Assembly (NCBI GenBank): GCA_905182585.1
Contig: CAJJCC010000020.1
Span: forward strand, 1 to 41,093
Source of the DNA: an uncultured Flavobacteriales bacterium
GTDB lineage: Bacteria > Bacteroidota > Bacteroidia > Flavobacteriales_C > GCA-002722245
Length of the DNA stretch: 41,093 nucleotides
Direction of reading: 5' to 3'
Shown: positions 5,268 through 9,092 of the stretch, in pieces
How the letters are laid out: each line of letters starts with the position of its first letter
Numbering within the stretch: position 1 is the first letter of the stretch
Made by a program: the position numbers and the translations under genes
The notes under the pieces: generated by a model
Told to the model about the DNA's origin: nothing
Databases searched by the model: none
Seen by the model: only the letters and a program-made list of their open reading frames with translations

Positions 5268-5271
5268 TTGT

Positions 5272-5395
5272 TTTAGTGTCCTTTAGTTTCGAATACAAAA
5301 CTACCAAGGACACTAAATTTACCCAATACCTCGAACAGGGTAAAACGCCTATACAGCCTACCCTTTTCGAGGTATTCACTACCTTTTTAAAGGTA
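5272..5395. promoter_or_regulatory. Three consecutive inverted repeats filling the spacer upstream of the imelysin operon
   Basis: IR1 5380-5386/5389-5395 (TACCTTT..AAAGGTA). IR2 5325-5334/5367-5376 (AATACCTCGA..TCGAGGTATT) with inner arms AGGGTA/TACCCT. IR3 5272-5283/5306-5317 (TTTAGTGTCCTT..AAGGACACTAAA) with inner arms TAGTTT/AAACTA. A minus-strand Bacteroidetes-like promoter (TTG-N20-TAGTTTTG) overlaps IR3. Confidence 0.8.
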
Positions 5396-5400
5396 CTGTC

Positions 5401-6123
5401 TTACGCTCCAAAAACCTTTTTCAAAAGATCAGAAACTCTTGCTGCAGGCTCCTCTCTAATTTTTTTCTCTTCCAATGCTAAAAGTTTGAAAAGACCTTCC
5501 ATTGCTTTTTCTGTTGTATAATCTTCCAAATCAAGATTAACCTTTTTTGTTAATGGAATTTTATTATACCCAGACGCTAATGGAGACCAATACTTTGTAA
5601 TGTTAACGGTTTGTAAAGCTTTCTCTACAATCGGTCTAAATGTAGTATATAAAGAATCTTTTGTGCTTTCCTCTAAATAACTTGTAGCCGCGTTATCTTC
5701 TCCTTTTAGAATTGATAAACCATCTTTTACAGACATTGATTTAATTGCCAATAAAAACAATGGAGCCGCCTCCTTAGCTGCTTCTTCAGCGGCTCTATTT
5801 AAAACAAGTTCAAATTCATCTACCTGCTTTCCCATTCCTACTTTACGCAAACTTTTTTGCATATTCTCAGCCTCTGCTGGAAAGGGAATTCGAATTAGAT
5901 CGTTTTTATTAAAACCATCCATTACACTAGCTGACTTACCTGCATTATCTACTCCAACACTTAAGGCTTCTTTTAAGCCACTAATCACTTCATCGTTTGT
6001 TAATTTAGATGCTGTTGGTGTTTCAACTTGAGTTTTAACACTGTTTTTTAGTTTATTTAAGTTCAATTGCGCATTCACACCAGTTGAGGCAAGAATTGCT
6101 ACTCCTATTAATATTTTTTTCAT
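5401..6123 (-). CDS. DUF4197 family protein
   Basis: Signal peptide, then 'DEVISGLKEALSVGVDNAGKSASVMDGFNKNDLIRIPFPAEAENMQKSLRKVGMG', the typical DUF4197 pattern. Confidence 0.88.
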   Translation of the reverse strand: MKKILIGVAILASTGVNAQLNLNKLKNSVKTQVETPTASKLTNDEVISGLKEALSVGVDNAGKSASVMDGFNKNDLIRIPFPAEAENMQKSLRKVGMGKQVDEFELVLNRAAEEAAKEAAPLFLLAIKSMSVKDGLSILKGEDNAATSYLEESTKDSLYTTFRPIVEKALQTVNITKYWSPLASGYNKIPLTKKVNLDLEDYTTEKAMEGLFKLLALEEKKIREEPAARVSDLLKKVFGA

Positions 6124-8309: not shown

Positions 8310-9092
8310 ATGCTAAAAATGATTATCAACCAAGAGGAAGCTAAATTAATCCCTAAATTTAGTTCCTATCATATTAGTGAATCAGGACGTGTTTACAGAA
8401 CAAGTTCGCCAAAGAAAAAAATCAAGTCCGAAAAAAACGAGAATTACTTAAAAGAAATAAAATTACATTTTAAAAAAAATAATATTTCATCTCACGGAAG
8501 GGTAAGCTTAGTTGATGATAAAGGGAAACTTCAAAATTTATGTGCAGGTCTATTAGTTGCCATAACTTTTAAACTAAAAGATACTAATTCAAAAATCACC
8601 AATAAAGATATTAGTTATAAAGACGGTAATAGACATAACCTTCATTTATCTAATTTGATATTTGTTGATAAAACGTATCCCAACAGTAAGTTAAAAACTG
8701 ACCAAATTAAATTAATAAAAAATCTCATAAAAAAAGGAGATTCATTAAGAAAAATAAGTTCGCTTTTTACTGTTTCTGAAATGCAAATAAACAGAATAAA
8801 AACTGGAGAAAATTGGGGTAATGGCAAAAGAAAAATCAAAGCGCCTTTAGCACCGTTTATAATTGAAGACGGTCCTATGAGGAAGTATATTGCTACTTTT
8901 GAAAGTCAGAAATTAAACTTAAAAATAAAGAAGCCGTTCATCATTAAAAGAAACCCTGAAAATCCCACAGAAAATATAATTCAGGGAATAGTAAAAGGGT
9001 TTAAACTTTCACGAACACACACTAATATAACTAGAGCAAAAAAAAGTGTAGAAAGATTAAATGACTTTTTTTTTCAAAACATAACTAAATAG
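8310..9092 (+). CDS. NUMOD4/HNH homing-endonuclease-like protein with degenerate HNH motif and an HTH-like segment
   Basis: 'IPKFSSYHISESGRVYRTSS' resembles NUMOD4. 'ISYKDGNRHNLHLSNLIFVDKTYPNS' aligns by eye with 'vNHIDGnk.NN..~NLewvt..eN'. 'KLKTDQIKLIKNLIKKGDSLRKISSLFTVSEMQINRIKTGENW' resembles the HTH repeat of such proteins. Confidence 0.65.
   Translation: MLKMIINQEEAKLIPKFSSYHISESGRVYRTSSPKKKIKSEKNENYLKEIKLHFKKNNISSHGRVSLVDDKGKLQNLCAGLLVAITFKLKDTNSKITNKDISYKDGNRHNLHLSNLIFVDKTYPNSKLKTDQIKLIKNLIKKGDSLRKISSLFTVSEMQINRIKTGENWGNGKRKIKAPLAPFIIEDGPMRKYIATFESQKLNLKIKKPFIIKRNPENPTENIIQGIVKGFKLSRTHTNITRAKKSVERLNDFFFQNITK

Follow-up and report, generated by a model that had tools for sequence, protein, structure and literature searches.

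A candidate NarL/LuxR-type operator array upstream of an imelysin and di-haem oxidoreductase operon in an uncultured Flavobacteriales bacterium

The spacer in front of an imelysin operon in the 41,093-nt stretch of DNA analysed here (the window) was found to contain a Bacteroidota-type promoter preceded by three copies of the unit TACC-N8-GGTA, and judging from their sequence and surroundings these sites are likely to be operators for a NarL/LuxR-family (GerE) regulator controlling iron acquisition. All genes considered here lie on the minus strand, and their Pfam assignments agreed with the gene calls of the first-pass annotation: a DUF4197 gene (5401-6123) is followed by the 133-nt spacer and then by the operon, which consists of a lipoprotein-like imelysin as its first gene (PF09375; 4089..5267), a di-haem oxidoreductase (DHOR, PF06537; 2670..4079), and a second imelysin (PF09375; 1621..2661). 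Elsewhere in the window, the ORF at 8310-9092 resembled, by eye, a NUMOD/HNH homing-endonuclease-type protein.

The three dyads that the first-pass annotation had described in the DUF4197-imelysin spacer were all present. IR1 spans approximately 5377-5398 and starts a few nt past the DUF4197 stop codon. IR2 proved to be longer than described, its arms (5325-5342 and 5359-5376) being 18 nt each and complementary at 17 of 18 positions, instead of the 10-bp and 6-bp arms reported earlier. IR3 (5272..5317, minus strand) surrounds the -7 box with perfect 12-nt arms (5272-5283 and 5306-5317) and additional inner arms, and 4 nt separate its end from the ATG, in agreement with the earlier description. 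What had been missed was the TACC-N8-GGTA unit, which occurs three times within IR1 and IR2 and is assigned here to the minus strand. Site 1, recognized from the sequence and by pattern match, lies in IR1 (TACCTTTAAAAAGGTA, 5380..5395); site 2 occupies one arm of IR2 (TACCTCGAAAAGGGTA, 5359..5374) and starts 21 bp after site 1; and site 3 occupies the other arm (TACCCTGTTCGAGGTA, 5327..5342), has its start 32 bp beyond that of site 2, and is immediately followed by the TTG of the -33 element. These intervals correspond to approximately two and three helical turns. The long IR2 hairpin arises because the site is palindromic and site 3 repeats site 2 almost exactly in inverted orientation (17/18 across the arms), which makes the two complementary. 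Their likeness extends beyond the shared motif, which the operator model does not require.

In the source genome assembly (1.52 Mb), 14 TACC-N8-GGTA sites were counted, and the occurrence of three of them in a 133-nt spacer corresponded to p ~3e-10. Among the remaining 11 sites, nine were located inside ORFs and two were intergenic. One of the latter lies in front of a DUF4856 gene with an imelysin-like gene behind it, the other in front of a sufA-like/sufB-like pair; these names in the source genome (G000) were given from reading the sequences, without a family search. The promoter of the DUF4856 operon carries the element both in the source genome (L266, G000 C27) and in the congeneric G003 (L255, G003 C76), and at L266, just as in the imelysin spacer, AAACTAAA was observed 6 nt past the TTTG in the -7 box. 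In front of the sufA-like/sufB-like pair (L267, G000 C14), a TACC-N8-GGTA site is accompanied by the Fur-type box TTTAGATTTAGTCTAAATAA.

Site 3 leads directly into the promoter. The -33 element TTG (5324..5326, minus strand) follows the dyad also in orthologous promoters, and the -7 element TAGTTTTG (TAnnTTTG; 5296..5303, minus strand) follows site 3 after a gap of 23 nt, the full element of dyad plus promoter being matched at 5296-5342. The promoter call TTG-N20-TAGTTTTG made earlier was correct, with the TTG located 20 nt upstream of the -7 box, and the arrangement is that of the Bacteroidota -33/-7 promoter (TTG, a gap of ~19-21 nt, TAnnTTTG), with the same spacing in relatives. At loci fetched regardless of spacing, the gap between the dyad and the -7 element was 22-24 nt in all 14 pairs and exactly 23 nt in 11 of them. 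By the promoter consensus, the start of transcription would fall a few nt past the -7 box, which should leave IR1, IR2, and one half of IR3 outside the imelysin mRNA.

The exact dyad was detected within 200 nt upstream of 11 of 19 orthologous imelysins from the same and other families, versus 4 of 326 control windows, and upstream of these 19 genes no match was obtained with other gap lengths from 2 to 16. Three more imelysin loci (L029, L030, and L034) carried, in the promoter region, a copy of the dyad with a single mismatch. Within the Crocinitomicaceae, the dyad was exact in L064, L067, and L068 (Crocinitomix catalasitica, one site) and had one mismatch in L065. Among distant imelysins the dyad was rare (4 of 80 loci), and the claim concerning imelysins is therefore limited to close relatives. 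Meanwhile, the pattern TACC-N8-GGTATT-N17..23-TAnnTTTG was present in 167 of 395 Bacteroidia genomes, versus approximately 15 for the reversed-pattern control. G003 lacks the operon, and what remains beside an intact DUF4197 gene is a relic made up of the spacer and the initial few nt of the imelysin frame (L006 1480-1660, G003 C89). Decay in this relic affects each of the three TACC-N8-GGTA sites as well as IR3, the -7 box, and the start codon, which now reads ACG instead of ATG, while DUF4197 is identical at 669 of 723 positions; the elements are therefore tied to the operon and not to DUF4197.

The genes located 3' of the full element at 30 loci included those for TonB-dependent receptors, FeoA (twice), DUF4856, a LuxR-type response regulator, a CbiX-like protein, and a weakly porin-like protein; some matches preceded genes without an evident iron link, such as those for TPR proteins. 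In the family of the source genome, the element precedes DUF4856-like genes, assigned by similarity to the Pfam-verified L151, in most genomes.

With regard to the candidate regulator, motif and response-regulator matches lay side by side on shared contigs in about a dozen genomes. Among the best 30 matches to one regulator, picked by protein similarity only, the dyad occurred within 200 nt at 13 loci, versus 1 of 343 control windows (p ~7e-18); the query regulator itself came from a motif match, and without it the count was 12 of 29. Other gaps and permuted motifs gave no match at these 30 loci. The sites were located upstream of the regulator gene or just downstream of it, before the next gene, and those upstream make the regulator genes of relatives candidates for self-control. 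In G062 the regulator gene lies directly upstream of imelysin, and in three genomes of the same genus (G001, G002, and G004) the upstream site of the regulator gene is followed by a degenerate second one approximately 31 bp further on. The proteins tested combine a receiver with a GerE domain, some of the receiver matches falling below the Pfam cut-off. The aspartate of the receiver is not invariant among them (L199 has Asn), which makes phosphorylation uncertain. A regulator of this family gave no match in the source assembly, which is 74% complete, and is present in G001, G002, and G004. At L176, L199, L217, L222, and L208, the gene after the regulator encodes a T9SS-sorted secreted protein, in some cases with a TACC-N8-GGTA site between the two genes. 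The secreted neighbours at the first four of these loci had been taken by eye for HmuY, an assignment that was abandoned after Pfam, NCBIfam, and PDB searches returned only the T9SS sorting tail.

The geometry of the dyad matches that of the sites of Escherichia coli NarL and NarP, in which heptamers (TACYYMT) starting with TAC are inverted 2 bp apart in a 7-2-7 arrangement of 16 bp (PMC4549865, PMC4886647). An engineered NarL 7-2-7 site, TACCCCTAAAGGGGTA, itself reads TACC-N8-GGTA, and NarL activates from positions -38 to -49 (PMC4549865). The three copies in the spacer share this 7-2-7 geometry, and the candidate regulators are likewise receiver-GerE proteins; linkage to a gene for such a regulator was found in relatives and not within the window. 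Unlike the NarL/NarP system, the sites described here belong to a Bacteroidota -33/-7 promoter and to iron-related instead of nitrate genes, have a fixed GGTATT edge, and occur in three phased copies.

In the model that we propose, the spacer would comprise a promoter and an upstream operator array, each dyad of which would be bound by a dimer of a NarL/LuxR-family response regulator. With 21 and 32 bp between their starts, the sites would align the dimers along approximately one face of the helix, and we infer that the three act jointly. The promoter-proximal dyad, centred near -43 and reaching into the -33 TTG, occupies the place expected of an activator in contact with RNA polymerase; the regulator is probably an activator at approximately -43, and we infer activation over repression. 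It would turn on expression of the imelysin-DHOR-imelysin operon under iron or haem shortage. In the source organism, the DUF4856-imelysin genes and probably suf would be co-regulated, whereas in relatives the targets would include FeoA and TonB receptors, and the regulator would also control its own gene.

It is unlikely, yet worth weighing, that these operators serve another regulator, for example the MerR-like MliR, or that a NarL-type regulator acts as a repressor by covering the -33 region. MerR-family proteins usually occupy the stretch separating the -35 and -10 elements, not DNA upstream of -33. On the other hand, the dyad touches the -33 box, and MliR of Bizionia argentinensis, a MerR-like protein unlike the NarL/LuxR-type candidates, is described as an iron-related Bacteroidota activator on which an imelysin-like gene depends, with imelysin-like, TonB receptor, and FeoB-associated genes falling in the mliR mutant (PMC9478572). 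Nevertheless, the genes found beside the motif, in a search that was for response regulators, encode response regulators and not MerR proteins, and the fixed spacing to the -7 box across many promoters fits an activator better.

The first-pass annotation had also raised a structured, iron- or haem-responsive 5' leader controlling imelysin translation, which would be transcribed from upstream or by read-through from DUF4197. The spacer does fold strongly (-59.4 kcal/mol versus -28.0 +/- 3.5 in shuffles, z = -9.07), and the 4-nt distance of IR3 from the ATG would suit such a leader. However, IR1 and IR2 precede a promoter that is itself part of the spacer; in orthologues, the 16-bp site and the promoter are conserved but the hairpins are not; no relative examined shares the IR2/IR3 structure; and Rfam gave nothing above its cut-offs, only sub-threshold mir-3116 matches. 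These observations make a leader very improbable, and IR1 and IR2 are best read as DNA operators instead. Slimmer still is the chance that the dyads are transcription terminators of DUF4197: the position of IR1 just past its stop codon would fit, but a terminator search of the spacer found neither a T-run nor a terminator-like site, no TACC-N8-GGTA site follows the DUF4197 gene in G001, G002, and G004, and the dyads of G003 decayed despite the conservation of its DUF4197. The extragenic palindromic (REP/MITE-like) insertion considered earlier, which the compact palindromes within an intergenic spacer might suggest, can practically be dismissed, since the spacer retrieved only itself and its inverted self from the source genome, followed by matches at E > 1, and the G003 relic as the sole full-length match in 60 relatives.

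The 12-bp arm of IR3 was equalled in none of 1000 dinucleotide shuffles, and it was not seen in 11 orthologous promoters, where the best arm was 4-7 bp. Imelysin is among the iron genes to which the Riemerella Fur box ATTTAGAATTATTCTAAAT has been linked (PMC5609570), and a box of the TCTAAATAA type resembling it was observed in front of many flavobacterial imelysins, a short way past the -7 element (L070-L142). Such a flavobacterial Fur box also precedes the sufA-like gene of the source genome and is absent from the imelysin spacer: the spacer, including IR3, scored -10.0 on a weight matrix built from 23 imelysin promoters, versus 19.5-32 for the collected boxes, and contained no ATTTAGA..TCTAAAT-like box of the flavobacterial type. 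The simplest guess is perhaps that IR3 is a second, species-specific operator. The idea of an iron-responsive operator, which the first-pass annotation had placed around the -7 box, is well supported for IR1 and IR2; for IR3 itself, which no relative examined carries, it is merely possible.

In function, the closest described counterpart of the candidate regulator is CdhR of Porphyromonas gingivalis (PG1236-37 operon). This response regulator controls the haem-uptake genes hmuYR through a mechanism called unclear, its operon is iron-induced and includes a hemerythrin-domain gene, and BT_0519-0520 is the counterpart in B. thetaiotaomicron (PMC10434189). Similarly, a hemerythrin gene lies upstream of imelysin in the relative L027. 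The literature searched gave no CdhR binding sequence, and no description of a TACC-N8-GGTA element in Bacteroidota was found in it, subscription papers being mostly outside the search.

More tentatively, TACC-N8-GGTATTG-N20-TAnnTTTG might represent the operator-promoter of a class-wide iron/haem regulon of Bacteroidia apart from Fur, run by a self-controlled NarL/LuxR-type family that possibly includes CdhR; in the organism studied here, this unit would have been built up to three phased operators, together with IR3 at a position where a Fur-type box, or no box at all, is seen in relatives. The control of iron and haem acquisition in Bacteroidota is poorly known, such knowledge being called scarce in PMC10434189, and the exact candidate motif, its promoter position, the list of targets, and the candidate regulator family make the question testable. 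The case also illustrates how an apparent series of three RNA hairpins in a spacer can instead be an array of DNA operators.
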